Source: Acidobacteriota bacterium (GTDB taxonomy: Bacteria; Acidobacteriota; Terriglobia; Bryobacterales; Bryobacteraceae). From it: a stretch of 64,000 nt of DNA. The stretch spans positions 124,001 through 188,000 of the forward strand of contig JAFKEE010000023.1 in NCBI GenBank assembly GCA_017307505.1, in the 5' to 3' direction. Positions 1,185-24,084 of the stretch are shown piece after piece (position 1 is the stretch's first letter; every line of letters begins with the position of its first letter). The translations under genes were made by a program, and so were the position numbers. A model generated the notes under the pieces. The model did no database searches, was not told the origin of the DNA, and saw only the letters and a list, made by a program, of their open reading frames with translations.

Positions 1185-1187
1185 TCG

Positions 1188-3829: not shown

Positions 3830-3956
3830 GAAGAGCATCGTTTCAGCTGCGATTTGCGCTGCGTGGCCCCTGCTCCCGGCTGCTTCATCGACTTTTGACT
3901 TGGTCCCGGTTTCCCCTGATAACAATCTCGTCGACTCTTCGACAAGGAACGCCTAC

Positions 3957-4169
3957 ATGACGACTCCAACCTCCCCCACGGTCTCGATTCGGCTGTTCAC
4001 CATCAAAGAAGCCGCCGAGGTCCTGAAGATTCCAGCCAGTTGGCTCTACGAGCGAACCCGGCGCAACGCGATCCCCTGTCACCGACTCGGTAAATACCTC
4101 CGGTTCACGGAAGAAGACCTTGCTCGAATCATCTCGTCACAGCCCCCGCAGTCGGACGCGGCAGACTGA
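3957..4169 (+). CDS. excisionase-type HTH protein
   Basis: 70 aa from the ATG at 3957, chosen because AAGGA lies eight bases upstream (3944-3948); a longer frame reaches back to 3900 without a better site. The protein reads FTIKEAAEVLKIPASWLYE... HRLGKYLRFTEEDLARI, the winged MerR-like fold of Xis/AlpA-type excisionases and helix-turn-helix 17 proteins. It lies ten bases upstream of the integrase and would direct excision or regulate integration. Confidence 0.85.
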   Translation: MTTPTSPTVSIRLFTIKEAAEVLKIPASWLYERTRRNAIPCHRLGKYLRFTEEDLARIISSQPPQSDAAD

Positions 4170-4178
4170 GGCTCCGCC

Positions 4179-8380: not shown

Positions 8381-9348
8381 CAGGGAGTTACCTTTCCACA
8401 GGCACATGCGCGATCGCTAGAAAGCGCCACCAGAGGAGGAATCTCCGACGTGCAGGATGGATCGCCTACGGCACATCGCGGGTGAAAGGCGCAACCGCTC
8501 GGAAGTCTGAACAGGTCGGGGACGGAACCTGGAATACCGTGTAGTGGGATCGTGCGATCACGGCTCCGCCGCACCGATGCAAGTAGTGCTTGAGTATACG
8601 GATGCTTGGGAACTGCAAAGAGCCCCTCGACAGGCGCAACCTCGACGAGCCTGCCCGCATACATAACGCACACCCTCTGCGCAATCTGTGCGACAACGGC
8701 CAGATCGTGACTGATGATCAGTATCGCCATCCGGTGCTTCTCCTGTAGTTCTCGCAGCAGGTCTAGGATCTCTGCTTGAACCGTGACATCCAGCGCCGTC
8801 GTTGGTTCGTCAGCTATGAGTAGCTTGGGGCGAGTACTCACGGCGATCGCAATCGCGGCCCGCTGCCGCATTCCTCCGGACAGCTGAAACGGATAGGATC
8901 TCGCACAACGCTCCGGATCGCCAATGCCGCACTCACCCAAGAGGCGCACTGCTTCTCGTTCGGCCTCCTTGCGCGTGAACCTACGATGCAGTGTAAGCAC
9001 TTCGCGCAACTGGTAGCCGACCGTGTATACCGGGTTCAAAGCGGCACCTGGCTCTTGGAACACGAAGCCAAATTCCCGAGCTCGCAACTCGCGGAGTCGC
9101 TCCTTCGAGGCAGTTACGATATCTTCTCCTGAGAGCAACACGCTACCGCCGACTATTCGTCCCGGCACCGGTATCAAATTGATCAGAGACAGCGCGACAA
9201 TCGTCTTGCCGCATCCCGATTCTCCGACCAGCGCAACTGTTTCGTTCTCATTTATGTCAAAAGATACGCCATCGACGGGTTTAAGAACGCCCTCAGCCAG
9301 GAAGAAATAGGAAGCCAGTTGATGCACGCTCAGCAGCACGTTAGACAT
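8380..9348 (-). CDS. oligopeptide/dipeptide ABC transporter ATPase, DppD/OppD type
   Basis: 323 aa from the ATG at 9348; this start overlaps the preceding permease stop by eight bases, as expected for a coupled operon, and removes an Arg-rich extension. Walker A VGESGCGKT is near residues 41-49, LSGGMRQR near 155, and Walker B LLIADEPTTALD near 173. A C-terminal Cys cluster (CAFHPRCAVGDPSC) marks the oligopeptide ATPase subfamily. It forms a heterodimer with the next ATPase. Confidence 0.95.
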   Translation of the reverse strand: MSNVLLSVHQLASYFFLAEGVLKPVDGVSFDINENETVALVGESGCGKTIVALSLINLIPVPGRIVGGSVLLSGEDIVTASKERLRELRAREFGFVFQEPGAALNPVYTVGYQLREVLTLHRRFTRKEAEREAVRLLGECGIGDPERCARSYPFQLSGGMRQRAAIAIAVSTRPKLLIADEPTTALDVTVQAEILDLLRELQEKHRMAILIISHDLAVVAQIAQRVCVMYAGRLVEVAPVEGLFAVPKHPYTQALLASVRRSRDRTIPLHGIPGSVPDLFRLPSGCAFHPRCAVGDPSCTSEIPPLVALSSDRACACGKVTP

Positions 9349-10270
9349 ATTTCCGCGCGAACGCCTTGGGATCCAACGCATCACGCAGACCGTCGGACAG
9401 CAGGTTGAAGGAGAGAACGGTCATGGAAAGTAGTACTCCGGGGAAGAAGGCAATCCACCATGCCACGAAGAGTGCATCTTGTCCCTCCTGGATCATATTG
9501 CCCCATGAAGGAGTCGGCGGTCTCACACCCACGCCTAGGAATGAGAGCATTGCTTCCGCTCCGATCAAGCCGCCAACCATAAGCGTAGCGCTCACAAGCA
9601 CCGAAGAAATCGCGTTCGGAATGAGGTGACGCAGGATGATCAGATACCCGGGCAAGCCGATCGCGCGAGCGGCTTCGATGAACTCGCGCTCTTTCAGCGA
9701 GAGGACCTGGGCACGTACAAGCCGGGCCGTTTCAGCCCACGAAGTCAAACCCATAATGAGGATAAGCACGCCAATGTCTGCTTCAAAGACTCCAGCGAGC
9801 AGAAGGATGAGGAAAAGCTTGGGAAAGGCAGTAAGAGCGTCCAGGGATCGCATCAGCGCGTTGTCCAGGAGTCCCCCGGCGTAGCCTGAGACTGAGCCGT
9901 AAATAGTGCCAACCGACACTGCCATCAGCATGGCAAGAACACCTACTGAAAGAGAGATCCTCGCTCCGAATAGGGCTCGACTGAACAAGTCGCGACCGAA
10001 CTCGTCCGTACCGAATGGATGCGACCAGGACGGTGGCGAGTATCGCGTCTGTATGACGCGTTCAATAGCTGCTGGGTCATAGGGGGCCAGCACAGGCGCA
10101 GCCAGGGCCGCCATGGAGAGCAACGCGATGACAACTAGGGCGGTCATAGCAAGACGGTTGGCGGCGAAGCGACGCGCCGCTAGACACCACGGCCCCCTAA
10201 ACCGAGAGGCAGTTGGGGCGCTCTCCAGCGTGATTTCCTCGAGTGTACGTTCAGTCGATTCGTTTGCCAT
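9341..10270 (-). CDS. oligopeptide ABC transporter permease, DppC/OppC type
   Basis: 309 aa inner-membrane permease with about six hydrophobic segments. The characteristic HPFGTDEFGRDLFSR motif follows the first transmembrane helix, and the EAARAIGLPGYLIILRHLIPNA coupling (EAA) loop is in the C-terminal half. It overlaps the upstream DppB-type gene by 20 bp and the downstream ATPase by eight. Confidence 0.94.
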   Translation of the reverse strand: MANESTERTLEEITLESAPTASRFRGPWCLAARRFAANRLAMTALVVIALLSMAALAAPVLAPYDPAAIERVIQTRYSPPSWSHPFGTDEFGRDLFSRALFGARISLSVGVLAMLMAVSVGTIYGSVSGYAGGLLDNALMRSLDALTAFPKLFLILLLAGVFEADIGVLILIMGLTSWAETARLVRAQVLSLKEREFIEAARAIGLPGYLIILRHLIPNAISSVLVSATLMVGGLIGAEAMLSFLGVGVRPPTPSWGNMIQEGQDALFVAWWIAFFPGVLLSMTVLSFNLLSDGLRDALDPKAFARKYV

Positions 10271-11258
10271 CGAGAGATACTCTTGGATCTACCACTGCGT
10301 ACATCACGTCGGCCAGCAGGTTGCCGGCAATAACCAAAACGGCAGCAATCAGGCTGGTGGCGAGAATTACAGGATAGTCGCGTGCTGCGACTGCGTCTAT
10401 AGCTAGCGCTCCGATGCCTGGCCAGGCGAAGACCTTCTCCACCACGACCGCACCACCCACGAGAAAGGGCAACTCTAGGCCGTAGATCGTAATGATCGGC
10501 ATCATTGCATTCCGCAGGGCGTGTCGTAGGACTACCCTTGACTCCGGCAGTCCGCGTGCGCGCGCCGCGATGACGTACTCTTCATTCAGCACTCCGAGGA
10601 GTTCGTTCCGCATGTACCTGGCGGTACCGGCAGCCGAGCCAAGCATCAGGACCAGAACGGGCAGCACAAGATGCCAGAGACGGTCCGCGACCTTTGCCGG
10701 AGCAGACAACAATGTGTAATCTAACGACCTGGTTTGCGAGATCGGCATCCAGTTTAGGCTGACAGCGAACACTAGGATACACATGACCGCTAGCCAGAAC
10801 TGGGGAATGGAGTAGACCAACACGGACGTGAGTGTGAGAAACTTGTCGAGGAACGAGTACGGTTTCACGGCGGAGACGACTCCTAAGGCGATTCCAACAA
10901 TCGCGCCGGAGAGCAAGGCAACCACCGTGAGTTGCAGCGTGTACGGTACCCGCTCCGCAATCAGACTCGAAACAGAGCGGCGATACTGAAATGATTCTCC
11001 CAGGTCACCGCGAGCAAGACTGCCCAGCCAGATCAAGTACTGCTCCGGAAGCGGCCGATCCAGTCCATACTTGCGCCGAATTGCCTTCTCTAGCTCTGGA
11101 TCGAACGGTCTGCCAGTGGCAAATTGCTCCCGGTGCTTCTGCAAGTAAAGATTGATCGGATCGCCAGGAGCCATGTGGACAACAAAGAACAGTATTGTGG
11201 CGATCCCAACTAGGAGGGGAATCGCCTGCAATCCTCGCTTGACCACATGCCAGAGCAT
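10251..11258 (-). CDS. oligopeptide ABC transporter permease, DppB/OppB type
   Basis: 335 aa from the ATG at 11258, which overlaps the TGA of the substrate-binding-protein gene (TGATG); an upstream in-frame start at 11297 is unlikely. The N-terminal LPLLVGIATILFFVVHMAPGDP signature and the AARARGLPESRVVLRHALRNAMMPIIT EAA loop identify it as the DppB/OppB subunit. About six transmembrane helices. Confidence 0.94.
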   Translation of the reverse strand: MLWHVVKRGLQAIPLLVGIATILFFVVHMAPGDPINLYLQKHREQFATGRPFDPELEKAIRRKYGLDRPLPEQYLIWLGSLARGDLGESFQYRRSVSSLIAERVPYTLQLTVVALLSGAIVGIALGVVSAVKPYSFLDKFLTLTSVLVYSIPQFWLAVMCILVFAVSLNWMPISQTRSLDYTLLSAPAKVADRLWHLVLPVLVLMLGSAAGTARYMRNELLGVLNEEYVIAARARGLPESRVVLRHALRNAMMPIITIYGLELPFLVGGAVVVEKVFAWPGIGALAIDAVAARDYPVILATSLIAAVLVIAGNLLADVMYAVVDPRVSLDGKRID

Positions 11259-12814
11259 CAGACTTTTGCCGCCAGCGAGAGGTCGTCCATGCACCACGTC
11301 AGGTCTCCGGGATTTGGCGAGCGATCCAGGCCAATAATCCGGCGGCTGGCAATAGTCGTGTAGATGTGCGGATAAAGGAATATGGCCGGGACATCCTCCT
11401 GAAACAGACTCGTCATTTCGCCATACAGGCCGTCTTGTCGCTCTGGATCAAGTGCAGCTTGCAGCCTGTCGGCAAGAACGACGAACCTGCTACTCTTGTA
11501 GCCGGCGGACTCCAGGAATCGTCGGGCCCCTCCGCCGGGATCCCATCCCGGGAGCATGATGCTGATCGCAGCTTCGTAGTCACCGGTGGCGGCGCGTTGC
11601 CAGACAGTCGGGCCTTCCATCGGCTCGATATTCATTCGCACTCCGACCCGTTCGAGCTGCGCCTGAATGTAGACTGCGGCTTCGTGTTGGCCCGCTCCCC
11701 CTTTGGTTCCACGGATCAACTTGAAACTGAACTCTTTGCCGTTGCGCTCTCTAGTTCCCTGACGGTTGCGCTTATGCCAGCCTGTGCCGTCGAGCAGGCT
11801 GTTCGCCAACTCGCGATCGTGCGGAATCGGTGGCGGCAGGTCGCGCCGCCGAAGTTGGTTCTTGCTGAACGGCGAATCGAACACCGGCGTTGTCGGAGGG
11901 AAATTGAGAATCTGAGCTAGCTCGTATCGATCGATTGCAAGCGTCAGCGCGCGCCGCACTACAGGATCGCGAAACAGCAGATGGCGATGATTCAAGAAGA
12001 GAACTGTGAAAAGATCGCTCGAAACTTGGTCATAGACTCGAAAGCGTGGATCGGTTGCCAGTTTGAGCACATCTGTCCGCTTAACGGAAGTCGCCGCGTC
12101 TGCGTTGCCGCTCAAGAGTTCTATTGTGGCTGGACTCATTCCGCTTTCCTGGGTGGCACCGAACTTCAGCACTACGTTTCTGATGTTCGGTTCTCCGCGA
12201 TAGTAGTCAGGATTTGCCTCCAACTGCAACATCGTCTTAGGTACCGTACGAACATGACGATACGGGCCGTTCCCTATCGGGTGCTTCCAAAAATCCCAGC
12301 TGTAGTATTCGTCGCGGCTTAGCTTCTCTATCCTGTGCTTTGGATAGTAGACGGTCCAGTCATCCAGGGCGCTACCCGATAGCCCATCGCGAAGGTAAGT
12401 AATCGTGTAGGTCAACTCGTCGATCACCTTTACGTTGAAAGAGTTCGGCGGGAACCACATCAGATCAGGGTGACTCCTCAACTCCAAATTGAACTTGATG
12501 TCGTGTGCAGTCACCGGCACACCGTCGTGCCATCGGACTCCGCTACGAAGACGAATCGTCCATTTCCGGTAATCCGGCGAGTGCTCCCAGTGCTCAGCGA
12601 GTCGGCCCTCCAGCTCGCCCGTCGCATTCCGCGCCGTCAGTGGAAGGAACATCATGAACTGCGCCGGCATGTCCATATTGGGTCCAAGCACCGTGTCGTC
12701 ATACGGGTACAGAATCGTGATCGAGTCCGCCGCCGGCCGAGACCTGGAACGCGTGGCGCACCCGCTCGTGATGCCTGCAATACCGAACATCCACTTTCGG
12801 CGGGTGAAACCCAT
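11258..12814 (-). CDS. extracellular solute-binding protein, family 5 (peptide-type)
   Basis: 518 aa from the ATG at 12814, with AAAAGGA eight bases upstream. The N-terminus has RRKWMFGIAGITSGC, a lipoprotein-like or Tat-like leader with Cys near residue 18, although the lipobox (T-S-G-C) is not ideal. The body has the family-5 features: LAEHWEHSPDYRKWTIRLRSGVRWHDG, HPIGNGPY, and RRALTLAIDRYELA. It is the first gene of the operon and would capture the peptide or related ligand outside the membrane. Substrate specificity cannot be read from sequence. Confidence 0.93.
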   Translation of the reverse strand: MGFTRRKWMFGIAGITSGCATRSRSRPAADSITILYPYDDTVLGPNMDMPAQFMMFLPLTARNATGELEGRLAEHWEHSPDYRKWTIRLRSGVRWHDGVPVTAHDIKFNLELRSHPDLMWFPPNSFNVKVIDELTYTITYLRDGLSGSALDDWTVYYPKHRIEKLSRDEYYSWDFWKHPIGNGPYRHVRTVPKTMLQLEANPDYYRGEPNIRNVVLKFGATQESGMSPATIELLSGNADAATSVKRTDVLKLATDPRFRVYDQVSSDLFTVLFLNHRHLLFRDPVVRRALTLAIDRYELAQILNFPPTTPVFDSPFSKNQLRRRDLPPPIPHDRELANSLLDGTGWHKRNRQGTRERNGKEFSFKLIRGTKGGAGQHEAAVYIQAQLERVGVRMNIEPMEGPTVWQRAATGDYEAAISIMLPGWDPGGGARRFLESAGYKSSRFVVLADRLQAALDPERQDGLYGEMTSLFQEDVPAIFLYPHIYTTIASRRIIGLDRSPNPGDLTWCMDDLSLAAKV

Positions 12815-13190
12815 CAGATCAGTCCTTTTCGGGAAAAGCCTACCATGCACAAGAGAATGCCGCCTACTGGGACGGATGTCAACATGACCAGGCCGTTTCG
12901 GTTGGTTGTTCGCAGCCGCGTGTCAGACTAGTGCGCGACACTACCGCTCAGAAGCGCCGTCCATGGGGCGAATTCGTGCGCGTGGACCGGGTGCACCAAA
13001 CCGTTGAAGCGGTGGCCCATCGACGGTGGCATGAACCTCGACCTTCTATTCTCGTCGGCCACGGTAGAGCGGTAGACCGCGACATGTTCTCGTTCGCATC
13101 GGTGGAGAAGATGTAGATTTCATTGAAAACCCTCACCTTCAGATCATCGCCGATACAGGTGCTCCATTCGACAACACCGAAGTCCGCATC

Positions 13191-13876: not shown

Positions 13877-14221
13877 ATGGACAAAAGCTCCGAATCGGTT
13901 CTGAAGTTGGTGGTTACCGCCGGGACCTCGGAGCCCCGCCATGCACGAGCAGCGTGGGGACGCATCGCTGACGTCGAAGGTATCGGGCTCGGCTGCACAC
14001 TGATTCGACGGCCTGTTTTAGAATTCGTCGACTTCCGGCTGCCCGACGATTTGGCCGAGGGGACGTGTTGCGACTGGATGTTCGCTTTCGACTGCAAACG
14101 GCTTGGGTTCACGCAGCGCGCGCACCTTGGCGTCGTGTGCGGACACTTGCCTCAACATCCGTCGAGCGGTTCATTGTGGCCTGATCCGTCCGCAGAGGCC
14201 CTTTGGCGAATCTCGCCGTAG
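13877..14221 (+). pseudogene. glycosyltransferase C-terminal fragment
   Basis: 114 codons. The stretch IGLGCTLIRRPVLEFVDFR... CCDWMFAFDCKRLGFTQRAHLGVVCGHL matches the acceptor-side end of family-2-like glycosyltransferases (DW..A.DC...G then a conserved Val-Cys-Gly-His). The nucleotide-sugar-binding N-terminal half is absent. It is probably a truncated remnant lying directly upstream of the YcaO gene rather than a functional enzyme, although a short open frame with its own ATG remains. Confidence 0.6.
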
Positions 14222-14280
14222 GTTGCACCGCCCCTGGCCGACAACCGCGAATGTCAACGGGCGACTGACGTGGGTTCGAT

Positions 14281-15522
14281 ATGGATTTCAATAAGTTCGA
14301 CTTTGCTGACAGCCCGCTGAGAACGCTGCTCGAAGACGAGGCCCAATCATTTTCAGAGTGCCGGGTCATCCTGGAAGGAACCATCCGCGCGTGTGATCCC
14401 GAGGTGACACTGGAGCGCGTACGACCGCACCTTCGGTCCATGGGGATTTCTCGTGTCGCACGTGTAGGAGGCCTTGATTCGGTTGGAGTGTCGGTCTCGA
14501 TTTGTTACAGACCCAATTCGAAGCATCTGTCCTCGGGCCAGGGCAAGGGCTCAACGCAGGTGCTGGCCGATGCATCCGCGGTCATGGAATGCATCGAGGG
14601 GTATCACATCGAGGGGCCGCGCAACCCGGCGCTGCATGGCAGTTATGCAGAGCTGCGCGCTCTGCATCGACTGGTCGATCCAGCGCGGTTGAGTCCAGGT
14701 TACTTCGCCAGCGAACATACTCGAAATCTCGAGCTCGACTGGAGCGCAGCAACGAACTTGGTCGACTGGTCGTTGTTGTACGTCCCCACATGCCTCACTC
14801 AGCTCGATTTTTCCAGATATGTGCCGGAGACCAACCGACTGTCGCTGACGTCGAACGGCCTAGCTTCGGGGAACCTGCTTGCCGAGGCCATTTGCCATGG
14901 GATCATGGAAGTCGTCGAGCGCAACTGCCTCGCGGCCTTCACGGTCGCGCCGCGTGTGCAGCGCGATGCGAGGCGCATTGACCTTTCGACCATCGAAGCT
15001 GGTGCCCTGCGGCAATTAATCGATCGATTCCGAGATGCAGCGTTGGAGGTTGTGCTGTGGGACATCACGGACGGGTTGGCCATCCCGTCGATCAATTGTG
15101 TTGTCATCGATCGCTCATCACCAGCAGCGCTGGGATTTCACGGTGGATCAGGTACACACTACGACAGCAGAATCGCCGCGATGCGGGCCCTGGCCGAAGC
15201 AGGCCAGTCGCGTGCAGCGTGGATCAGTGGGTCGCGCGACGACTTGTTCCCGGAGCGGTATGCAAGGCAAGCGACCCGAGCGACTTCTGCAATGACGCAC
15301 GAGAGCGATCGAACGCAACATGTGAGCGCTGGACGCGATTTCGCTCTCGTACCACAAGGCCCCGTGCTATCGAGCTTCGCTGCGACGCTTGACTGGCTGC
15401 GTGACCGATTACGGCTTAAAGGCTTTGATGAAATCCTAGTGGTCAATCACACACTTCCCCAATTCAATATTCCTGTCATCCAAGTCATCATTCCAGGCAT
15501 GAGTATTCGCCATGACCGCTGA
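14281..15522 (+). CDS. ycaO: YcaO-domain peptide-backbone-activating enzyme
   Basis: 413 aa. YcaO ATP-binding signatures are complete: SSGQGKG (about residues 84-90), ASAVMECIEGYH with S99/E103/E106, AEAICHGIMEVVERN with E202/E210/E213, and the late ALAEAGQSR (E306, Q309). YcaO enzymes use ATP to activate a backbone amide oxygen, giving azolines with a cyclodehydratase partner or thioamides with TfuA. There is no E1-like/ocin-ThiF partner gene, but a TfuA gene overlaps its 3' end by 11 bp, so thioamide formation on a ribosomal peptide is the best prediction. No strong ribosome-binding site precedes the ATG at 14281. Confidence 0.92.
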   Translation: MDFNKFDFADSPLRTLLEDEAQSFSECRVILEGTIRACDPEVTLERVRPHLRSMGISRVARVGGLDSVGVSVSICYRPNSKHLSSGQGKGSTQVLADASAVMECIEGYHIEGPRNPALHGSYAELRALHRLVDPARLSPGYFASEHTRNLELDWSAATNLVDWSLLYVPTCLTQLDFSRYVPETNRLSLTSNGLASGNLLAEAICHGIMEVVERNCLAAFTVAPRVQRDARRIDLSTIEAGALRQLIDRFRDAALEVVLWDITDGLAIPSINCVVIDRSSPAALGFHGGSGTHYDSRIAAMRALAEAGQSRAAWISGSRDDLFPERYARQATRATSAMTHESDRTQHVSAGRDFALVPQGPVLSSFAATLDWLRDRLRLKGFDEILVVNHTLPQFNIPVIQVIIPGMSIRHDR

Positions 15523-17020
15523 TAGTACCGCCGTGGTCGTGTTCGTCGGCCCGTCGTGCCCCGTCGAAGACGCATGTCGGGTGCTCCCGGGAGCAGTCTA
15601 TCTTCCTCCCGTCAAGTGCGGCGACGTCTTACAGGCGCTCCGGCTGAAGCCGCAGCGGATTGCGGTCATCGACGGCGTCTTTCGCGAGGTCCCGTCGGTA
15701 TGGCATAAGGAACTCCTGCTCGCGATTGATCTTGGAATTGAGGTGTGGGGCGCCGCGAGCATGGGTGCGCTGCGTGCAGCGGAGTTGACTGATTTCGGCA
15801 TGCGCGGATTTGGGGCGATCTATCAGGATTACCGTGACGGTCTCCTGATCGACGACGACGAGGTCGCGCTGCTGTTCAGCAAGGTTGGAGACCGGTACCT
15901 GTGCGTCGGCGACGCTATGGTCAACGTTAGGGCGACGATCAAGAAGGCCCTGGGTGCAGCCGTGGTCACGCCTGCGTACGCAGAAAGTATTCTCAACGAG
16001 TTGAAGCGCAGCCACTATTCCGAGCGTCATCTCGTCAGGTGCCTCGAGCATCGAAACGACGAACATTCCCGACGATTGCTTTCATGGCTGCAGGAAGGCA
16101 ACGGGGTCGACGCGAAGCGCGACGACACGCTGGGTCTGCTCGCCATGCTTCGCGAGACGAAGCCCGCGTGCTCTCGAAACTCGCAACGCACAAATCGCAC
16201 GCTGGCACTTCGGCGCATGAGTCTTCGCGTCATGACGGCGCCGCTCGACTTCGATTCACGGTGGCTGTCCCCTGAGGAGCGGAATCTCCAAAGCTTAAGG
16301 GGTGGACGCATCTATAATCTATTACGTCGCCTCGCATGCTTCCTGGCCCTTTTCGACGGCCTTCTCGACCATCTGCACGTAGCGCCAGATCGGACACTAC
16401 CTGAGCGGCCATTCTCGGCCGGCCTCGCACCGAACACCCTCGATACGGCAGATGAGCAACTGCGAGCGATGGTGGCACGGCTCGACCATCTCCTCACGCA
16501 GTTTCCGCGTGAGATGGGCGCGACTTTCGACGATTGGAAGAGCACGTATCGTGCTTGCCTGAAGATCGAGGGTCTCTACGAAGACTTCAGGCGTATGCAA
16601 AATGGCGAGATTGACCGGCACCGTCGGGAGGCGCCTCTCGAATACCGAGTCACCTATCTGTTGGCACGACTATGGCAGTTCCATGAGGATTACCTGCTGC
16701 ACCTCGGGCTTGCCCCACGGATGGACCGCGTCATCGAGCAGACAATCGAGATGCGTCGATCGCTTCGGCTGCACACTGCGGGGGACATGGAGTCGTGGAT
16801 GGCTCGCAACGACCTGGATACCGACGATATGCAGGCCTTGATGACTATGGAATGCAACTACCAATTCCTGGTAGAGGGAGCCTATTATGAGCACATGGGG
16901 TTCCTGGAGCCGACTCGCGATCGGTGCTGGCTGCTTGACGCGGTCAAGCTCGTTGATGATGCGGCTGCGAACGACTTGCAGCACGCACGACGGGCAGACG
17001 CTCGTTGCTTTGCAGGGTAA
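15512..17020 (+). CDS. tfuA: TfuA-like protein with long C-terminal extension
   Basis: 502 aa. The TfuA core spans about residues 1-215: VVVFVGPSCP, LPPVKCGDVLQAL, AVIDGVF, SVWHKELLLAIDLGIEVWGAASMGALRAAEL and IYQDYRDG are family landmarks. TfuA partners YcaO in thioamide synthesis, probably by delivering sulfide. The remaining ~290 residues are helical, Arg- and Leu-rich, and match nothing I recognise; most TfuA proteins lack such a long tail. Overlap with ycaO implies co-translation. Confidence 0.88.
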   Translation: MTADSTAVVVFVGPSCPVEDACRVLPGAVYLPPVKCGDVLQALRLKPQRIAVIDGVFREVPSVWHKELLLAIDLGIEVWGAASMGALRAAELTDFGMRGFGAIYQDYRDGLLIDDDEVALLFSKVGDRYLCVGDAMVNVRATIKKALGAAVVTPAYAESILNELKRSHYSERHLVRCLEHRNDEHSRRLLSWLQEGNGVDAKRDDTLGLLAMLRETKPACSRNSQRTNRTLALRRMSLRVMTAPLDFDSRWLSPEERNLQSLRGGRIYNLLRRLACFLALFDGLLDHLHVAPDRTLPERPFSAGLAPNTLDTADEQLRAMVARLDHLLTQFPREMGATFDDWKSTYRACLKIEGLYEDFRRMQNGEIDRHRREAPLEYRVTYLLARLWQFHEDYLLHLGLAPRMDRVIEQTIEMRRSLRLHTAGDMESWMARNDLDTDDMQALMTMECNYQFLVEGAYYEHMGFLEPTRDRCWLLDAVKLVDDAAANDLQHARRADARCFAG

Positions 17021-17054
17021 GGGACGTTGACCGGATCCGGAGTTCGTTGAACTG

Positions 17055-17270
17055 ATGAAACCGCTCGCGATCATGGGAATCAACACAGCGCACGACGCTT
17101 CGGCCAGTCTGGTCATCGACGGGCAGTTCAAGGTCGCCATCACTGAGGACCGGCTCACGCGCTTTAAGTGTAAGCGCGGATACCCTTCGAAGGCGGTCGA
17201 CTACTGCCTAGAAGCAACAGGGATTCGACAGTTGCGGGCCATCGATTGCGTGGTTTTGAACCAGCCGCCG
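17055..17270 (+). pseudogene. carbamoyltransferase (NodU/CmcH type) N-terminal fragment
   Basis: About 71 codons are clearly the N-terminus of a carbamoyltransferase: IMGINTAHDASASLVIDGQ, then ITEDRLTRFKCKRGYPSKAVDYCLEATG and IDCVVLNQ. These correspond to the first actin-like ATPase subdomain. The homology stops near 17268, where the sequence switches to an unrelated nuclease fragment. The remaining ~500 residues of a normal enzyme are missing, so it cannot be functional. It may record a lost O-carbamoylation step or an imported fragment. Confidence 0.8.
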
Positions 17271-17275
17271 ACTCC

Positions 17276-17510
17276 TGGCCTAGCCTCATCCTCACCGGCA
17301 AGGTGGACGGCATCGTCCGCATCGGCGGCGAAAATTTCCTCCTCGAACACAAGACCGCCGGACAACTCGATGGCGACTACCTGGAAATACTCTGGACCGA
17401 CTTCCGGATCAGCATCTACGCCCACTACCATCGAGCAGACCATGGGCATCCCGATCACTGGGATCCTTTGCATTTACAACGTCCTGGTAAAGGCGACCGG
17501 AACAGACTTC
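17276..17510 (+). pseudogene. PD-(D/E)XK phage exonuclease fragment, frameshifted
   Basis: In the frame of 17246 the sequence reads LTGKVDGIVRIGGENFLLEHKTAG, containing the D...E-x-K core of RecB/lambda-exonuclease-like PD-(D/E)XK nucleases, then LWTDFRISIYAHY. After about 17430 the homologous continuation (IEQTMGIPITGI... YNVLVKA) is in another frame, so it is frameshifted as well as truncated at both ends. Its junction with the carbamoyltransferase fragment is abrupt, suggesting recombination debris from a prophage. Confidence 0.7.
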
Positions 17511-17865
17511 GCACAAATGCGGTCTCCCGCGGTCCCGCCAAACCTGGCATGGTGAGTTGGTCCTGAGGCTGACACCCCGGTGAAAACATGGAACTTGGCG
17601 GTTGCGCACCCGTGCCTTCCGCTCGCGTGCGTGGTATACTTCCGTACGGAAAACAGCATCGAAAACTACCGAGCACAGGCTCAAGAATGATCACGAGTGG
17701 GACCAACCTCGACGTGCTGGGCCCGACGGGCTCGCCTTCAGCAAGCGAGCGGGTACCCATGCGTGCGGGACCCGCCCATTTGCACCGATATCGTGAATAT
17801 TGAAATCAGACTACTCGATGGAATTCAATCCCAAAAGAACACGCTAAACGAAGGATCACAGGCAA
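17511..17865. other. intergenic upstream of precursor peptide 1
   Basis: About 350 bases. I see no protein-like frame. GTATACTTCCGTACGG near 17634 includes a -10-like TATACT and a short CCGTACGG palindrome, and GACACCCCGGTGAAAAC near 17570 resembles insertion-sequence end sequence; neither is strong. The promoter for the precursor gene presumably lies here. Confidence 0.3.
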
Positions 17866-18063
17866 ATGACAACGAGTGTAACCAATGAAACCACCGCCGT
17901 TGAGCCAGAGACGAAAGTCGCAGAACGTGACGAGGAGATTTCCCTTAGTGACGAGGAGACTTCCCTTAAGCGATTCGAAGGCGTCCCGAAGTTTTCACGT
18001 GCGCTCACCGTTCGCCTCGACGGGGCGGACGAGTCGTCATACGAGTGTTGTCGTGTCTGTTAG
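17866..18063 (+). CDS. candidate RiPP precursor peptide 1 (ends ECCRVC)
   Basis: 65 aa with AAGGA ten bases before the ATG (17851-17855). The first two thirds are strongly acidic and Thr/Glu-rich, as in RiPP leaders, with a duplicated DEEISLS/DEETSLK unit, and the C-terminal end YECCRVC puts three cysteines and one arginine in the last six residues. It lies between the YcaO/TfuA pair and a methyltransferase/radical-SAM set. Inference: the leader is recognised by the RRE-like N-terminus of the radical SAM enzyme, and the C-terminus is the modified core. No homologue is recalled, so it is a prediction from context, size and composition. Confidence 0.65.
   Translation: MTTSVTNETTAVEPETKVAERDEEISLSDEETSLKRFEGVPKFSRALTVRLDGADESSYECCRVC
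17927..17968 (+). repeat. 21-bp tandem repeat inside the leader of precursor 1
   Basis: Two adjacent 21-base copies (17927-17947 and 17948-17968) differ at one position and keep the reading frame, duplicating seven leader residues. A recent in-frame duplication of a leader segment is unusual for a peptide whose leader is read by recognition elements. Confidence 0.85.
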
Positions 18064-18085
18064 GTAGCCGCGGCACCTGCTCGGC

Positions 18086-18870
18086 GTGCAAGAACTCGTT
18101 ACGCAAAGTGGGGAGGTTCCTCTCGTTCGCTTCCCTCGGCGTGACAGGAAAGGTGTGCCCCCGCGCGTTCTACGTGGAGAACTGTTTCGTATGGACGAGA
18201 TGAGTATGCGAGTAGTCGAGAAACACGGGACTTCTGTTCTTTTTGATGCACCAGTGTGGAGGCACTTGCCGGTTCATTATACGTCTGAGGGTCTCGACGT
18301 CGGCACTCAGCAAGTGATGCAACACTGGGAGCGGCCGTTGATGTCGCATTTGGTACGCAATGCGACCAGACGAAGGGGTCGAGTCTTGGAGGTCGGCTTT
18401 GGCTTAGGGATTGCGTCGGCCTTCGCCAACGAACGTGGGTGTGAGGAATACTGTATTATCGAGGCTCATCCACAAATCGCCGAAGCAGCGCGCACATAGG
18501 CGCGGCAGCAGGTGATACCAGTACTCGTCGTGCAGGATTTCTGGCAGAACGTCATCGCAGATCTCGGTAGGTTCCACGATGTGCTTTTCGACACGCGCCC
18601 CGTCGATCGCGATACCGCATCCAACAACTACAAGTCGTTCTTTTCGGTTGCGCACCGGGTACTCGCAAAAGACAGTTGCGCGTTCGTACGCAATTTGTCG
18701 AAGCACCTATCGGAGCATCTCCCCGCTTGGCCGTCCGCTTGTGATATACTCCACCGAAGCTTTCGAGGGGAAGGCCAATATGATGGGCAGATCGATCAAG
18801 TCTGCAAACACATCCGGTTCGACGGGGGGGCCCACGTCTTGCTTCGAAGCGGGTACGTTCGCCGATGGAC
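18086..18870 (+). pseudogene. GAMT-like methyltransferase copy 1, interrupted by TAG
   Basis: Paralogue of the gene at 20529. The N-terminal half is good (VMQHWERPLMSHL, RGRVLEVGFGLGIASAFANERGCEEYCIIEAHP), but a TAG at 18497-18499 stands where copy 2 has Trp (TGG). The same frame continues as VVQDFWQNVIADLG... VLFDTRPVDRDTASNNYKSF. Beyond about 18690 the homology moves to other frames (IYSTEAFE near 18740), with extra bases relative to copy 2. The catalytic-region DTYP of copy 2 is DTRP here. The true start is uncertain (18086 or 18191). It is probably inactive. Confidence 0.8.
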
Positions 18871-19002
18871 GACCGGCCATCGATCTTCGCCGACACAACA
18901 CAGTCTCGCTTCACAACGTCGTGGGCTACGGCGCCACTGCTAGAGGGATGCTCGGCCCCCCTCGCAACGCAACTGCATTGTGGAGTATGGAGGATCCTTC
19001 GC

Positions 19003-20334
19003 ATGGCGCACAGATTGGCTGCTGAGACCTTCATCGAACCGTGTGAGGATTCATTCCTCGTGTACGCGCCGCTGAAGGGTGTTGCCTTTACCGTCAATGG
19101 TTCCGCGGCCGCTTTTCTGCGAACGCTCGCCCAGGACGGTATGACAGAAATCTCGCCTGAGTACCGCGAACTGTTCACTTTCGTCGAAGAACTCGGGCTC
19201 GTCGGCGGCAATGAACCAAAGCGGCCCTCGGTCGAAAGCGAAGCGTTTGAGCCAACGTCGGCCTATCTGCTACTTACTGCAGACTGCAACCTTCGTTGTC
19301 AGTATTGCTTCAGCAAGGGCGGCGACTCTAAAACCAACCTCTCGGTAACGGTCGCGAAGGCTGCGATCGATATTATCGTTGAAAATGCGCGGAGAAGATT
19401 CATCCAGCCCAAAATCAGATACCACGGCGGTGGCGAACCTACGCTCAGGTGGGATGTCCTCACTGAGACAGCCATGTATCTGAAAGCTGAAGCCGCGAGA
19501 CACTCTCTCACTCCACATCTCGGCATAAATACGAATGGCGTGCTCCCTGAGTACAAGCTGAAGTGGATGGCGGAAAACCTGGACGCTATCTACATCTCGT
19601 TCGACGGCCCGCAGGATTCACACGATCTCCAGCGCCCTACCTTTGGTGGAGGTGGATCCTATGCGGCCGTCTGGAAGACGATGCAGTGGCTTTCGGAAGC
19701 CGGCAAACAGTTCGCCGTCAGATCAACGATCACCAAGAATAATTTTGGTCATATGGCGAAGATCGTTGATATGCTTTCGCCGTTTGGTGTGAGCGGCATC
19801 GAGCTAGAACCGCTCACAGTATGTGGACGGGCCTACACCAGCCAATCCGAAGCACCTTCACCCACTGAGTACATCCAAGGGTACAAGGAGGCTTATGCTA
19901 GAGCGAAGCACCACGGTATGGACATCCTCTATTCGGGTGTGCGCATCGACGCGATAGGATCGATCTTTTGCGGAGCTGCGGGCAGGAACTTTGCCGTGAC
20001 GCCTTCTGGGCATAGCACTTTCTGCCATCGCGTCAGCGATGTTTCAGAACCGGGTGCTGAACACTACATTTACGGAAAGTACAGCGAGGAGACGGGGACC
20101 TTCATCTTCGACCGGGAGAAGATCGGCGCAATGAAGGGGATGAGCTGTGAGAAGTCGACTGCATGCCAAGATTGCTTTGCAAAGTGGAACTGCGGAGGCG
20201 GATGTTACGCCCAGAACCACGAAGAGACTGGTAAGTTGATGCTCGATCATCGGACGGACCGTTGCACGATGACCCGGGAGTTGACGAAGTTTCGTATTGT
20301 CGAAAGGATACAGTTGGCGAATCCTATCAAATAG
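19003..20334 (+). CDS. radical SAM / SPASM peptide-modifying enzyme with RRE-like N-terminus
   Basis: 443 aa from the ATG at 19003, selected because GGAGG sits nine bases upstream (18989-18993); a frame open to 18865 would run through the decayed methyltransferase. Residues 1-70 look like a PqqD-type recognition element (FLVYAPLKGVAFTVNGSAAAFLR... FVEELGLVGG). The radical SAM cluster is C95-C99-C102 (CNLRCQYC) with HGGGEPT at 141-147. A Cys-rich SPASM end (CHRVSD, CEKSTACQDCFAKWNCGGGC, DRC) binds auxiliary 4Fe-4S clusters. Family members install thioether, C-C or C-N crosslinks or epimerise residues in RiPP precursors. Confidence 0.92.
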   Translation: MAHRLAAETFIEPCEDSFLVYAPLKGVAFTVNGSAAAFLRTLAQDGMTEISPEYRELFTFVEELGLVGGNEPKRPSVESEAFEPTSAYLLLTADCNLRCQYCFSKGGDSKTNLSVTVAKAAIDIIVENARRRFIQPKIRYHGGGEPTLRWDVLTETAMYLKAEAARHSLTPHLGINTNGVLPEYKLKWMAENLDAIYISFDGPQDSHDLQRPTFGGGGSYAAVWKTMQWLSEAGKQFAVRSTITKNNFGHMAKIVDMLSPFGVSGIELEPLTVCGRAYTSQSEAPSPTEYIQGYKEAYARAKHHGMDILYSGVRIDAIGSIFCGAAGRNFAVTPSGHSTFCHRVSDVSEPGAEHYIYGKYSEETGTFIFDREKIGAMKGMSCEKSTACQDCFAKWNCGGGCYAQNHEETGKLMLDHRTDRCTMTRELTKFRIVERIQLANPIK

Positions 20335-20347
20335 AGCAAAGGGGTAC

Positions 20348-20500
20348 ATGCGCATGAAGACCAATGAGACCGCCGTCGAAGCGTTGCAGAACAACCCGGA
20401 ACCTTCTTTGGGCGGAAGCAGTTGGATCGGTCAATACGCCCAGCCTTCCCCAGCATTCGGCGGGTGTACTGGTTGTCCGGACCGACGCTCGCGCATGTGA
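20348..20500 (+). CDS. candidate RiPP precursor peptide 2 (GGCTGCPDRRSRM end)
   Basis: 50 aa (48 if the second ATG at 20354 is used), with AAAGGGG just upstream. It has a short leader-like part (TNETAVEALQNNPEPSLGG), a Trp/Tyr-containing middle (SSWIGQYAQPSPAFGG) and a Cys- and Arg-rich end (CTGCPDRRSRM). It lies 13 bases after the SPASM radical SAM gene and directly before the intact GAMT-like methyltransferase. The arginines near the C-terminus are plausible targets for guanidino methylation. The assignment rests on context and composition. Confidence 0.6.
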   Translation: MRMKTNETAVEALQNNPEPSLGGSSWIGQYAQPSPAFGGCTGCPDRRSRM

Positions 20501-20528
20501 GTTTCCAAGGTTTGGCCACAGCGATTTC

Positions 20529-21188
20529 ATGCTGACAGGTAACATGTCGGACGCGGCACGAACTCCGTTCGAAGCACCCGCTTGGTGTAACCAGTCGGTG
20601 TGCTACACGCCGGAGGGACTTGAGGTGGGTGGCAAACAGGTGATGCAGTACTGGGAGCGCCCCCTTATGCGGCAACTTGCCTCCTATGCCACTCGACGAA
20701 GGGGGCGCGTCCTTGAGGTCGGGTTTGGCCTCGGGATATCTGCTAATTATATAGCGGAATTCGGCTGCGAGGACTACTGTGTCATCGAGGCGCACCCATT
20801 GATTGCGGAGAAGGCGCGCGCCTGGGCGGCGACACAGTCCATCGCTGTGAAAGTCGTCGAGGACTTTTGGCAAAACGTCGTAGGCCGCTTAGGTGTATTC
20901 GATGGCATTCTCTTTGACACATACCCGGTAGACGCCGATGCTGCGTCCAACAACTATAAGTCTTTCCTGCCCTGCGCTCAGAGCTTCCTCGCGAATGAGG
21001 GCGTTCTCACGTACTACTCCGAGGAAACGAGGGAATTTCGGTCAGATCACCTTCAGCGTATTCTTGAACATTTTGACACCGTAGAATTCACAGTAGTCGA
21101 GCATCTCAGGGTCCCAGTGAATTGCCGTTATTGGAAGCACGACCACATGGTATTGCCTTGTCTCAGCCGTCCGCGGGTTCGACGCTAG
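20529..21188 (+). CDS. GAMT-like guanidino/arginine N-methyltransferase, copy 2
   Basis: About 219 aa from the ATG at 20529 (20544 is also possible; the frame is open to 20364 but overlaps the precursor gene). It follows guanidinoacetate methyltransferase closely: VMQYWERPLMRQLA, RGRVLEVGFGLGI (SAM motif I), YCVIEAHP, ILFDTYPVD, GVLTYYSEE, and CRYWKHDHMVLP aligning with the CRYYAFPQM..P end of GAMT. GAMT and Rmt2 relatives methylate guanidino nitrogens. Inside a RiPP cluster it may methylate arginine in the core peptide. Confidence 0.8.
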   Translation: MLTGNMSDAARTPFEAPAWCNQSVCYTPEGLEVGGKQVMQYWERPLMRQLASYATRRRGRVLEVGFGLGISANYIAEFGCEDYCVIEAHPLIAEKARAWAATQSIAVKVVEDFWQNVVGRLGVFDGILFDTYPVDADAASNNYKSFLPCAQSFLANEGVLTYYSEETREFRSDHLQRILEHFDTVEFTVVEHLRVPVNCRYWKHDHMVLPCLSRPRVRR

Positions 21189-21312
21189 TGACCCCGCGGT
21201 GTATGCGAATCTGGCGCGTTATGGCGGTACCGAGCATTTCGGTGATGGAAGCTAGTGTGGTGTGGTGCACGCTGCAACTCTATGGTTTTGTATAAGACGG
21301 CCAGGAGGAGGT

Positions 21313-23298
21313 GTGCGCGTCAAAGTCGGATTAGTCCAAATTAACCATAGCTTTCATGGGCAGAGTTTCCTTCCTTATTCTGTCGCACTGCTTCAGGCCT
21401 ATGTCGAGCAGTTCGCGCATCAGCCTGAGCGGTTTGATTTCATCCTGCCCATCTACAAACGGCTCCCAGTTGCACAGATCCTGGAGGCTCTCGTCGACGC
21501 CGACATCGTTGGTTTCAGTACGTATGCTTGGAATGGTCGGATATCCATCGAAGTCGCGCGTCGCCTGAAGGACCGCAATCCGAATGTCGTTGTCGTGTTC
21601 GGAGGACCACATGTTCCTGACGACGCGGAATCCTTCCTAAGATCCAACCCTTTCATTGACGTTGCTGTCCACAATGAAGGTGAGCGCGTCTTCCTTGCTC
21701 TGTTGGACCAGTATCCGGCGATTGAAGCCGCTTCCGTAGAGAGTGCAAGCTTTGTCGGAAAGGATGGTTGTTATCATGGCGGGGCGAAGGCGCGGCGGAT
21801 CAGCGACCTTGACCAGGTTCCTTCACCATTTCTCTCCGGTGTACTGGATCGGTTGATAGCTGCGCATCCAGAAGAATCCTGGATCGGTCTTTGGGAGACG
21901 AATCGCGGTTGCCCGTTCGCATGCACGTTCTGCGATTGGGGGTCAGCGACGGCCTCGAAGGTCCATACATTTGCCCTCGATCGCCTGCAGGCAGAGATCG
22001 ATTGGTTCTCTCGCCATCAGGTAGAATTCATCTACTGCTGTGACGCCAACTTTGGCATCCTAAAGCGGGATGTTGAGATTGCCCGCTATGTGGCGGCGAA
22101 GAAGCGGTCGACAGGATATCCCAATGCACTATCGGTGCAGAACACGAAGAATGCGACAGAGCGCGCATACCAAACCCAAAAAGTGCTAGCTGACGCCGGC
22201 TTGAGCAAGGGCGTAGCCTTATCGATGCAGAGTCTCGAGTCCGAGACTCTTATAAACATTAAACGCGGCAACATCTCACTGAATACGTATTTCGAACTGC
22301 AGCGACGGTTCAACCGTGGTGGTATCGATACGTACTCTGACCTGATTCTGGGCCTGCCGGGGGAAACGTACGAGTCTTTTGCTGAAGGGGCCGATAGGTT
22401 GATAGCGAGTGGACAACATACCCGTATTCGATTCAACAATCTCTCAATTCTCCCGAACTCTGAGATGGGCAGCAGCGCCTACCGTGATCGATATGGCATG
22501 ACAACTGTAAAGTCGAAACTGATCGTTCTTCCGCGCTACGGTCGCGAAAGTGAGGATGATGTCGAGGAGATTCAGGATCTTGTCGTCTCAACGTCTGCGA
22601 TGCCGCTATGCGATTGGCAACGTGCTCGCGTCTTCGGGTGGATGACGTCGCTATTACACTTCGACAGATTGACGCAGATTCCTCTTATCGTCGCCAACCA
22701 AACGTCCGGGATCAGCTATCGGAGAATGATCGAAGAGGTGATGGATGTTGATCGGAGCTATCCATTGCTTGCGGGTGTTCGAGACTGGTTGTGGGCTGAA
22801 GCTGCGGCGATCCAAAGGGGAGGGTCGGAATATCCATTTTCCGAGGACTGGCTCGGGATGTACTGGCCGACAGATGAGTATGTGTTTATTACTCTCACTA
22901 CTGAAGGACAGTTAGGCGAACTGTATCGCGAAATGGCTGATCTGTTTACGAAGCTACTTATGTCCCATGGAGCGAGTTCGTCGATCCCAGCAGTGCAGGA
23001 GGCATTCACCTTGAATCAAGCCTTGATCAAACAGCCATTTGTTTACGATGACATTCTCGTGCCTACGGAGCATGACATCATGGGATTATATTACGCAGTT
23101 CTCAAGGGTGAAGTTGCCGAGCTTCGGCGACAAGCGATGATCACCCGCGTTGAACGGTCGAAAGCGGTTTACAGTGACCTGCAGGTGTGGTGCCGGGAGG
23201 TCGTCTGGTGGAGCAAGCAGAAGGGATCGTACTTGTACGAAAGCAACTCTAGAGAGGCTGGCGTTGCGTGCTCTTCGGCCCCGCTTGAGATGCGATAG
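21313..23298 (+). CDS. B12-binding radical SAM protein
   Basis: 662 aa from a GTG at 21313, preferred because AGGAGGAG lies at 21303-21310; an ATG at 21262 is in frame but lacks such a site. The cobalamin-binding Rossmann region covers about residues 1-140 (VGLVQINHSF, VGFSTYAWN, VVVFGGPHVPDDAE), without a DxHxxG motif, as in many of this class. The radical SAM cluster is C200-C204-C207 (RGCPFACTFCDWG). A ~250-residue C-terminal part is family-specific. Known relatives C-methylate unactivated carbons, including in RiPP maturation. Confidence 0.9.
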   Translation: MRVKVGLVQINHSFHGQSFLPYSVALLQAYVEQFAHQPERFDFILPIYKRLPVAQILEALVDADIVGFSTYAWNGRISIEVARRLKDRNPNVVVVFGGPHVPDDAESFLRSNPFIDVAVHNEGERVFLALLDQYPAIEAASVESASFVGKDGCYHGGAKARRISDLDQVPSPFLSGVLDRLIAAHPEESWIGLWETNRGCPFACTFCDWGSATASKVHTFALDRLQAEIDWFSRHQVEFIYCCDANFGILKRDVEIARYVAAKKRSTGYPNALSVQNTKNATERAYQTQKVLADAGLSKGVALSMQSLESETLINIKRGNISLNTYFELQRRFNRGGIDTYSDLILGLPGETYESFAEGADRLIASGQHTRIRFNNLSILPNSEMGSSAYRDRYGMTTVKSKLIVLPRYGRESEDDVEEIQDLVVSTSAMPLCDWQRARVFGWMTSLLHFDRLTQIPLIVANQTSGISYRRMIEEVMDVDRSYPLLAGVRDWLWAEAAAIQRGGSEYPFSEDWLGMYWPTDEYVFITLTTEGQLGELYREMADLFTKLLMSHGASSSIPAVQEAFTLNQALIKQPFVYDDILVPTEHDIMGLYYAVLKGEVAELRRQAMITRVERSKAVYSDLQVWCREVVWWSKQKGSYLYESNSREAGVACSSAPLEMR

Positions 23299-23301
23299 CC
23301 G

Positions 23302-24084
23302 TCAGGCACCCCCCTGAGGCTTTGACACGCGGAATAGAAACCGACTGCTGTAGAAGAAATAGCGGCCGTCTGCATAAAGAGACTCCAGGTCATGAATCCA
23401 TCTCTCGTACTCGTCCACCGAGATCAGCCCTCGGCTGAGCACAAACTCACCGATCACTTCGGCTAGACCGTGGCTATACGTCCCGTCGTGAAATTCCAGG
23501 TTCAGTATCGGCAACGCGCTAACTTCATCGAGCACGAAACCAGCCTCTCTAGCTCTAGGTGCCATCGTCCGGGGCAACCCCGGATGGAGACAGTGGGTTC
23601 GCCACGCATTCATTATCGACGCCATGGTTGACGGAACATCTGAGTGCCATATGACCCCATCCCAGTCAGTTGCAACAAAGAGCGCCCGACCGCTCGGCTT
23701 GAGGGAGTCGAACACGTTCTTTATGGCGGTGTCCACTTGTGGAAGATATTCGAGGACCTGTACACACGTCGCTATGTCAAACGTCTTGCCGAGACCGTGG
23801 CTGGCCATGATGTCGCAACATTCGTACGACAGCCAAGAGCAATGGTTTCTCTGACTGGCGGCGTCCACGATTTCGGGCGAGATATCGACACCGGTAACTG
23901 AACCTGTTTTCCCGACGAGATCGGCCATGCTCTGGCAAAGATGTCCCAGGCCACATCCCAGATCGACGATCCGTTCTCCAGGAAGAAGGGCCAGTTGGCG
24001 CATGACCTCGGCGCGCTGTAAGACAGCATCTGGCGAGAGATTAAAGGAGTCTATCCGCTTCACGAGATCCATAGTGATCTGCAT
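23302..24084 (-). CDS. class I SAM-dependent methyltransferase
   Basis: 260 aa. SAM-binding motif I is IVDLGCGLGHLCQ (about residues 39-51), with SVTGVDISPEIVDAA as motif II and FDIATCVQVLEYLPQ as motif III/IV, followed by SLKPSGRALFVATDW. It belongs to the UbiE/Methyltransf_11 style of small-molecule methyltransferases. It is convergent with the B12 radical SAM gene, four bases apart, so it belongs to the cluster by position, but its own promoter must lie in the 24.1-kb gap. Substrate unknown. Confidence 0.85.
   Translation of the reverse strand: MQITMDLVKRIDSFNLSPDAVLQRAEVMRQLALLPGERIVDLGCGLGHLCQSMADLVGKTGSVTGVDISPEIVDAASQRNHCSWLSYECCDIMASHGLGKTFDIATCVQVLEYLPQVDTAIKNVFDSLKPSGRALFVATDWDGVIWHSDVPSTMASIMNAWRTHCLHPGLPRTMAPRAREAGFVLDEVSALPILNLEFHDGTYSHGLAEVIGEFVLSRGLISVDEYERWIHDLESLYADGRYFFYSSRFLFRVSKPQGGA

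Follow-up and report, generated by a model that had tools for sequence, protein, structure and literature searches.

A Singleton, Partly Degraded Putative RiPP Gene Cluster with YcaO-TfuA, Radical SAM and Guanidinoacetate-Methyltransferase-Type Genes in a Bryobacteraceae Genome

Introduction

Do the genes at positions 13877-24084 of this stretch form a pathway for a ribosomally synthesized and post-translationally modified peptide (RiPP)? The window is the whole stretch of 64,000 nucleotides that was analysed, taken from contig JAFKEE010000023.1 of an Acidobacteriota bacterium of the family Bryobacteraceae (GCA_017307505.1). Its source genome comprises 9.39 Mb in 75 contigs. A new RiPP pathway had been proposed at this locus from the sequence alone; this is referred to here as the original prediction. 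With somewhat better than an even chance, the locus is a singleton, partly degraded putative RiPP gene cluster. The families of its genes, their order and their damage can be observed directly, and within the searched genomes the full set is a singleton. These genes are best read as serving peptide modification (RiPP), and this view is partly supported. Relatives of three of the cluster enzymes sit in RiPP-like clusters.

Gene Content and Organization

The locus is a plus-strand gene run from 13.9 to 24.1 kb, with one class I methyltransferase gene convergent with the run. Gene starts were picked from Shine-Dalgarno-like sites and the onset of family likeness. The features below include open reading frames (ORFs) and genes of the guanidinoacetate N-methyltransferase (GAMT) type; lengths are in amino acids (aa).

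13877..14221, plus strand: ORF of 114 aa directly 5' of YcaO, moderate coding signal
14281..15522, plus strand: YcaO of the TfuA-partnered type (PF02624, 1-325 of 325, E 5e-68)
15512..17020, plus strand: TfuA with a C-terminal extension of ~290 aa (PF07812, E 9e-40)
17055..17300 (end approximate), plus strand: remnant, truncated carbamoyltransferase N-terminus (PF02543, E 2e-7)
17866..18063, plus strand: P1, candidate precursor of 65 aa with the C-terminal end ECCRVC; GAAGGA upstream
~18086..18700 (end approximate), plus strand: GAMT1, taken for a pseudogene; 61% identity to GAMT2 across 148 aa
19003..20334, plus strand: radical SAM/SPASM peptide-maturase-like enzyme (PF04055, E 6e-17); GGAGG 9 nt before ATG 19003
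20354..20500, plus strand: P2, candidate precursor, 48 aa when started at its second ATG and 50 aa when started at 20348, tail GGCTGCPDRRSRM
20529..21188, plus strand: GAMT2, intact GAMT-type enzyme (solved GAMTs in PDB, E 4e-25)
21313..23298, plus strand: cobalamin (B12) radical SAM methylase of the TokK/CysS/KedN5 group (PF02310, E 5e-13; PF04055, E 2e-13)
23302..24084, minus strand: class I methyltransferase (PF13649, E 5e-17)

The YcaO, TfuA and B12-type radical SAM genes named in the original prediction are borne out by these Pfam matches, and its two short ORFs with Cys-rich ends are present as P1 and P2. The YcaO, TfuA, SPASM, GAMT2 and B12 genes are all open and match their own families over the expected length. 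Two GAMT-like genes had been claimed. GAMT2 is intact, and the other is broken by an in-frame TAG at 18497-18499; its likeness to GAMT2 stops at residue 158 of 218. Because of the TAG and the unmatched C-terminus, GAMT1 is read as a pseudogene. The third methyltransferase gene, at 23302-24084, proved to be an ordinary class I enzyme, and its membership in the cluster is unsure. The reported absence of a visible protease or exporter gene agrees with Pfam and NCBIfam, which gave no such family match inside 13877-24084. The 114-aa ORF was without a match in these two databases.

The SPASM, P2, GAMT2 and B12 genes form a tight same-strand unit with gaps of 19, 28 and 124 bp. YcaO-TfuA lies upstream of P1 by 845 bp, and this gap contains debris that includes the carbamoyltransferase remnant, of which residues 6-70 only are matched (profile positions 2-67 of 346). 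The original prediction had overlooked this remnant (from 17055) and an importer of the Opp/Dpp type (7394-12850) that is described below.

YcaO and TfuA

YcaO scored 184.6 bits with TIGR03266 (cut-off 365) and 157 bits with TIGR00702 (cut-off 75.65). TfuA scored 180 bits with NF033432 (cut-off 235) over residues 8-215 of 502. Judged by sequence, the pair are relatives of the McrA-glycine thioamidation pair and are not that system, since their scores fall below the cut-offs of the nearest NCBIfam models. Adjacent ycaO and tfuA genes, by which thioamidated RiPP clusters are recognized, are found at 14281-17020 with both Pfam families. P1 is 845 bp and P2 is 3.3 kb away from TfuA, and neither has a convincing second copy in its own genome.

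At E 1e-40, YcaO relatives were found in its own genome and in one (G347) of 396 genomes of the phylum. The G347 locus (L050 8891-13983) has a RiPP B12 radical SAM gene (TIGR03975, 667 bits), then YcaO, then TfuA. A 93-aa ORF lies upstream of this gene row and a major facilitator superfamily gene lies beyond that ORF. TfuA relatives at E 1e-10 were found in its own genome and in 10 of 237 family genomes, and the neighborhoods were read in five of these 10. In four of the five (G170, G245, G182 and G259; L205-L209), YcaO-TfuA is without SPASM, GAMT or B12 relatives nearby. G170 possesses two YcaO-TfuA pairs, one with YcaO split in two ORFs, and in G168 (L204) TfuA alone was recognized. The pairs at L205 7785-10012 and L207 7285-9512, from two genomes, have like neighbors, and the adjoining genes by eye resemble haem biosynthesis.

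The SPASM Radical SAM Enzyme and Its Relatives

The original prediction described a SPASM enzyme with a PqqD-like N-terminus. The SPASM Cys set is there: CxxxCxxC and seven further Cys are invariant in 10 of 10 aligned sequences, its own included. A PqqD-like N-terminus was not detected by sequence. The best NCBIfam models were PapB (151.7 bits, cut-off 340) and SCIFF (132.3 bits, cut-off 425), and the enzyme is below both cut-offs. Its nearest solved chain is 5wgg_A (profile search, E 4e-50), whose sequence equals that of 5why, an entry titled for thioether formation in sactipeptides.

AlphaFold models made without an alignment had a mean predicted local distance difference test score (pLDDT) of 40 and 46, so that the fold search is weak. 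The model of the first 93 residues (mean pLDDT 46) has three strands and two helices (EEE-H-H). With this low-confidence model, Foldseek gave an unrelated first match and placed TbiB1, a leader-binding RiPP recognition element (RRE), second and third (E 1.2; probability 0.47 and 0.44), with no match below E 0.001. This low-confidence fold at most hints at an RRE at the N-terminus of the SPASM enzyme.

Relatives of the SPASM enzyme at E 1e-30, with identities of 26-37%, were found in its own genome along with 14 of 237 family genomes and nine of 352 genomes of a phylum sample. Neighborhoods were read in 11 of the 14 and seven of the nine, and in five of 128 matching plasmid records. Plasmids of Edwardsiella tarda and Salmonella serovar India carry a related SPASM gene (30-31%), then a small ORF, ABC transporter genes and S8 protease genes, in a shared cassette:

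L057 5262-10662: Edwardsiella tarda
L182 5060-10458: Salmonella serovar India

The small ORF 3' of the SPASM gene encodes 59 aa in Edwardsiella and 57 aa in Salmonella, with a CCRGG core and a shared EGNFEFLCCRGG stretch. The Salmonella copy may be damaged, as its annotated SPASM start corresponds to about residue 65 of the enzyme studied here and its S8 gene is in two pieces. In Methylocystis, the ORF after the related SPASM gene is Cys-rich and encodes 128 aa. Overall, a small Cys-containing ORF lies directly 3' of the SPASM gene in three of the five plasmid loci; the nearest one in Caballeronia is ~480 bp away, and the Chlorohelix plasmid locus has a 157-aa ORF downstream. The position of P2 matches that of the small ORF in these related SPASM cassettes.

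A recurring large partner is encoded 3' of SPASM at L223 9357-11147, L224 9718-12798 and L228 9914-11374. These partners begin with ERPQFELTRVYADGT in L223 and L224, and with a looser version in L228.

In the genome G336 (L225 4952-10573), a SPASM relative adjoins a B12-type radical SAM ORF, and another radical-SAM-like ORF stands beside them. The B12-type ORF is 26% identical to the B12 enzyme of the cluster (E 7e-15). This locus and L203, which is described with the B12 enzyme, are the nearest part-sets in the neighborhoods read.

The Cobalamin Radical SAM Enzyme

The B12 enzyme is preceded by AGGAGGAGG ahead of its GTG start at 21313. Both the B12-binding domain and the CxxxCxxC radical SAM core are present, the latter as CPFACTFC in the translation. 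It matches TokK at E 3e-102 (346 bits) and CysS at E 1e-57 (199 bits), and it scores 292 bits with NF033712 (cut-off 700).

Relatives at E 1e-40 were found in its own genome and in 15 of 237 family genomes, of which three were read for neighborhoods. The nearest family relative (G195) is 45% identical over residues 4-631 and lies in the following locus:

L203 (G195:C484), 2-5136: genes for a GDL-type SPASM protein, a TokK-type B12 radical SAM enzyme, a borosin-type alpha-N-methyltransferase and a class IV aminotransferase

The SPASM neighbor, whose gene is cut by the contig end, is nearest to TIGR03913 (456 bits, cut-off 592). The nearest solved relatives of the borosin-type neighbor, a TP-methylase, are the borosin enzymes dbOphM (E 5e-62) and SonM (E 1e-59). 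L203 is possibly a C- and N-methylated borosin cluster.

GAMT-Type Methyltransferases

GAMT2 retains the WE and FDTYP motifs of GAMT (VMQYWERPLM and FDTYP). The WE and DTYP motifs are presumably the guanidine-binding and catalytic sites. In a tree of 59 rows, from which matches below 130 aa were dropped and the solved GAMTs were absent, GAMT2 and GAMT1 group beside, and outside, the ERWE-type GAMT-like rows (support 100/98, rooting arbitrary).

Among 101 relatives searched, GAMT2 was found in its own genome, with two weak matches. The 396 phylum genomes gave its own, two strong matches (G283, E 3e-35; G563, E 5e-33) and 13 weak ones. GAMT2 gave no result against plasmids at E 1e-5, and its single-sequence pattern gave none against genome contigs and viral contigs. 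A scan of the GAMT family with one genome per species took in the best 80 of 85 relatives. None of these 80 loci, some of which are on short contigs, possesses TfuA or SPASM relatives. With ten window queries at E 1e-6 (tblastn), matches besides GAMT were found in only three: L098 (YcaO), L151 (B12) and L115 (the minus-strand methyltransferase).

L098 (2770-10609), from a gammaproteobacterial metagenome-assembled genome, has a GAMT-like gene (37%) behind genes for a SagD-type YcaO, a SagB dehydrogenase, a leader-binding protein and an ABC transporter. It is a thiazole/oxazole-modified microcin (TOMM) cluster in which no precursor was recognized. The locus L075 (3-17352) resembles a nonribosomal peptide synthetase (NRPS) locus; a GAMT-like domain is embedded in it, and it also carries a carbamoyltransferase.

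Candidate Precursors

Coding signal was ranked against 72 shadow ORFs; the big enzyme genes were in the training set, so that the ranking is no independent test for them. P1 is in the 90th-95th percentile, and it has no second copy in its own genome. P2, which lies 19 bp past SPASM and 28 bp ahead of GAMT2, has AAAGGGG upstream, and its tail GGCTGCPDRRSRM contains three Arg. Besides itself, P2 has three weak matches in its own genome (E 0.04-0.54).

The peptides of the Edwardsiella and Salmonella cassettes were also compared with P1 and P2. The pair of P1 and the Salmonella peptide gave a shuffle fraction of 0.01 over the leader and, as one of four comparisons, is not pressed; the other three pairs gave 0.20-0.35. 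The CCR triplet is common to P1 and the plasmid peptides, and the alignment is not significant.

Comparison with Known Systems

Published TfuA clusters include some that carry SPASM enzymes or B12 radical SAM proteins, as well as a fused tfuA-ycaO accompanied by two radical SAM proteins (PMC8120280, in the text available). Actinobacterial thioamidated RiPPs are covered elsewhere (PMC6511847, in the part available). The present locus shares with such clusters the adjacent ycaO and tfuA genes and the SPASM or B12 radical SAM genes beside them. It differs in that its radical SAM genes are a second unit past a degraded spacer. In addition, the available text of PMC8120280 describes no GAMT-type enzyme, and its SPASM examples have a stand-alone PqqD.

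The SPASM enzyme resembles the ranthipeptide/SCIFF maturases (PapB, 5wgg), which are its best NCBIfam and PDB matches, and it has the full Cys pattern. Unlike them, it is far under the NCBIfam cut-offs, and by eye no precursor of the CX3D or SCIFF type was seen.

The CCR of P1 invites an analogy, and no more than that, to the enteropeptins, in which a Cys-Arg thiomorpholine is formed and that residue is then changed and methylated (PMC12703449, as far as its available text goes). That pathway uses an arginase, which yields Orn, together with an Fe-S methyltransferase; the present cluster has no arginase family match and has a GAMT-type enzyme instead.

According to the accessible portion of PMC9303977, the B12 radical SAM enzyme TmoD works on a carrier peptide; CysS, ThnK and TokK are one group apart from TmoD, and TokK and CysS act on small-molecule products. 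The B12 enzyme of the cluster shares sequence likeness with the TokK/ThnK/CysS methylases, yet it is encoded beside peptide-type genes. GAMT2 shares family homology and the WE and DTYP motifs with guanidinoacetate N-methyltransferase. It differs in adjoining the ERWE-type group rather than lying within it, and no amidinotransferase match was found in the cluster.

According to the original prediction, no described RiPP class is known to have this set. This holds for the GAMT component and for the full combination, which are new; the pairwise combinations of TfuA-YcaO with SPASM or B12 radical SAM enzymes were already known. Among the open-access papers listed, none places a GAMT-type enzyme in a RiPP cluster or has the full set. 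In its available text, a review of RiPP methyltransferases does not contain "guanid"; it mentions arginine twice, both times for the alpha-N-dimethylation of plantazolicin (PMC11285071).

A Possible Pathway

The N-terminus of the SPASM enzyme could bind the leader of P2, and formerly also that of P1. The enzyme would then form a thioether of the PapB/SCIFF kind between the sulfur of a Cys and a second residue in the C-terminal core; for P1, a Cys-Arg link is possible. GAMT2 could N-methylate the guanidine of arginine in the core, for which GGCTGCPDRRSRM offers its three Arg. The TokK-type enzyme would place one or more methyls on an unactivated carbon. YcaO-TfuA would turn a backbone C=O into C=S, provided that its subcluster still acts on the same peptide. 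Genes elsewhere would have to supply leader removal and export. Arginine methylation, a thioamide and a crosslink in one product are inferences. In favor of the RiPP reading are the tight SPASM-P2-GAMT2-B12 unit, the plasmid SPASM cassettes with their small ORFs, the borosin-type neighbor of the B12 relative in L203, the more distant GAMT-like gene of the L098 TOMM cluster, the GAMT motifs kept by GAMT2, the G347 locus and the published pairing of TfuA-YcaO with SPASM or B12 radical SAM genes.

Taken as a whole, a new RiPP class that unites GAMT-type N-methylation of the Arg guanidine, a SPASM Cys thioether, a TokK-type C-methyl or larger alkyl group and a thioamide, with a Cys-Arg thioether in P1-like substrates, is a distinctly doubtful proposition. 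If GAMT2 acts on P2, guanidine N-methylation of a RiPP arginine would be carried out by a metabolic-enzyme family, and a TokK-type enzyme, known from small molecules, would be placed in peptide maturation. The borosin-type neighbor in the related genome (L203) makes such a role of the TokK-type enzyme testable. A single peptide of 48 aa would be open to four chemistries.

Alternative Explanations

Several results weigh against the RiPP reading, and further ones come up below under the alternatives that they favor. No second genome with the full set was found, in searches that were partly of samples or best-match lists. The PqqD family gave no match in the 10 SPASM members at E 1, nor any in the source genome at E 1e-3. 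Compared with PqqD, the SPASM N-terminus has an hhalign probability of 1.3%, and four control segments of the same protein have 0.1-0.5%. In the phylum sample, at least three of the seven SPASM relatives are followed by large proteins with alike starts and by no small peptide; no clear precursor was found among the Cys-rich small ORFs beside the family SPASM genes. In the tree, the L098 GAMT is placed away from GAMT2, and thus L098 is a precedent for the GAMT family and not for the subgroup.

P1 and P2 may be chance ORFs, with the enzymes acting on another, unseen substrate. The coding signal of P2 is weak (below the 75th percentile of the shadow ORFs), and neither peptide has a convincing second copy. 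The likeness of the P1 and P2 leaders in TNET(T)AVE falls short of significance (shuffle fraction 0.05-0.09), and the P1-P2 pair is outside the 12 best among 6042 pairs of small ORFs. The original prediction had made conservation of the peptides beside these enzymes in other genomes its test, and none was found: the TNE motif occurs nowhere else in the loci compared for it, this motif alone having been checked, and the peptides themselves were not searched alone in other genomes. The Shine-Dalgarno-like sites before both peptides, and the place of P2 where related SPASM cassettes carry a small ORF, argue for true genes, and chance ORFs appear unlikely.

It is quite possible, if short of an even chance, that the locus holds two unrelated neighbors: a YcaO-TfuA pair that stands alone and thioamidates some other target, and a SPASM-P2-GAMT2-B12 unit of its own. 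This would fit the 845-bp gap between TfuA and P1, with its truncated carbamoyltransferase, and the four of five family genomes read in which YcaO-TfuA occurs without relatives of the other enzymes nearby. The two units are nevertheless close and on the same strand, and TfuA-YcaO with SPASM or B12 enzymes is a published pattern (PMC8120280, in its available text). That the pathway is a relic that no longer yields a product seems somewhat unlikely. The nonsense codon and lost C-terminus of GAMT1, the truncated carbamoyltransferase and the want of a protease or exporter match are what such a relic would leave, and the whole cluster may be dying, with GAMT1 and the carbamoyltransferase being broken. 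Against this stand the open, full-length YcaO, TfuA, SPASM, GAMT2 and B12 genes.

Rather improbable is that the product tailored by the GAMT2/B12 part, and by the carbamoyltransferase now lost, is a small molecule or a nonribosomal peptide and not a RiPP. The products on which TokK and CysS work are small molecules (PMC9303977, in the portion accessible). The B12 relative with the highest identity seen (53%, on a plasmid of Azospirillum sp. TSA2s) belongs to a sugar/polysaccharide cluster. By ORF inspection, GAMT-like genes of bacteria frequently lie within or next to NRPS genes (L075, L080, L083, L092, L105, L109 and L111), and in G283 a GAMT-like domain inside an NRPS adjoins a carbamoyltransferase (ORF inspection, blastp). 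On the other side, no NRPS, polyketide synthase or sugar family was found among the cluster and flanking genes tested, and the B12 relative in L203 has a borosin-type neighbor. The known substrates of SPASM enzymes and of TfuA-YcaO are peptides or proteins.

Flanking Genes

An importer operon lies just upstream of the putative RiPP cluster:

7394..12850, minus strand: ABC importer operon of the Opp/Dpp type (PF00496, PF00528 twice, PF00005 on four genes)

Four of its five genes were family-tested, and the ATPase at 7394-8407 was read by eye only. The operon is not shown to be part of the cluster. No relative of its binding protein was found at E 1e-60 among the eight other genomes of the genus, and a phage integrase family gene is present at 4179-5393, upstream of the cluster. 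These two observations make the cluster's location in keeping with a mobile island.

Rfam at gathering scores gave no match in the window. A promoter scan found 2 (5.2 expected), and 13 terminators were found (10.2 expected). Farther along the window, at 40095-41598, the ThiF protein and protein B of a PRTRC system were identified above cut-off (TIGR03736 and TIGR03737).

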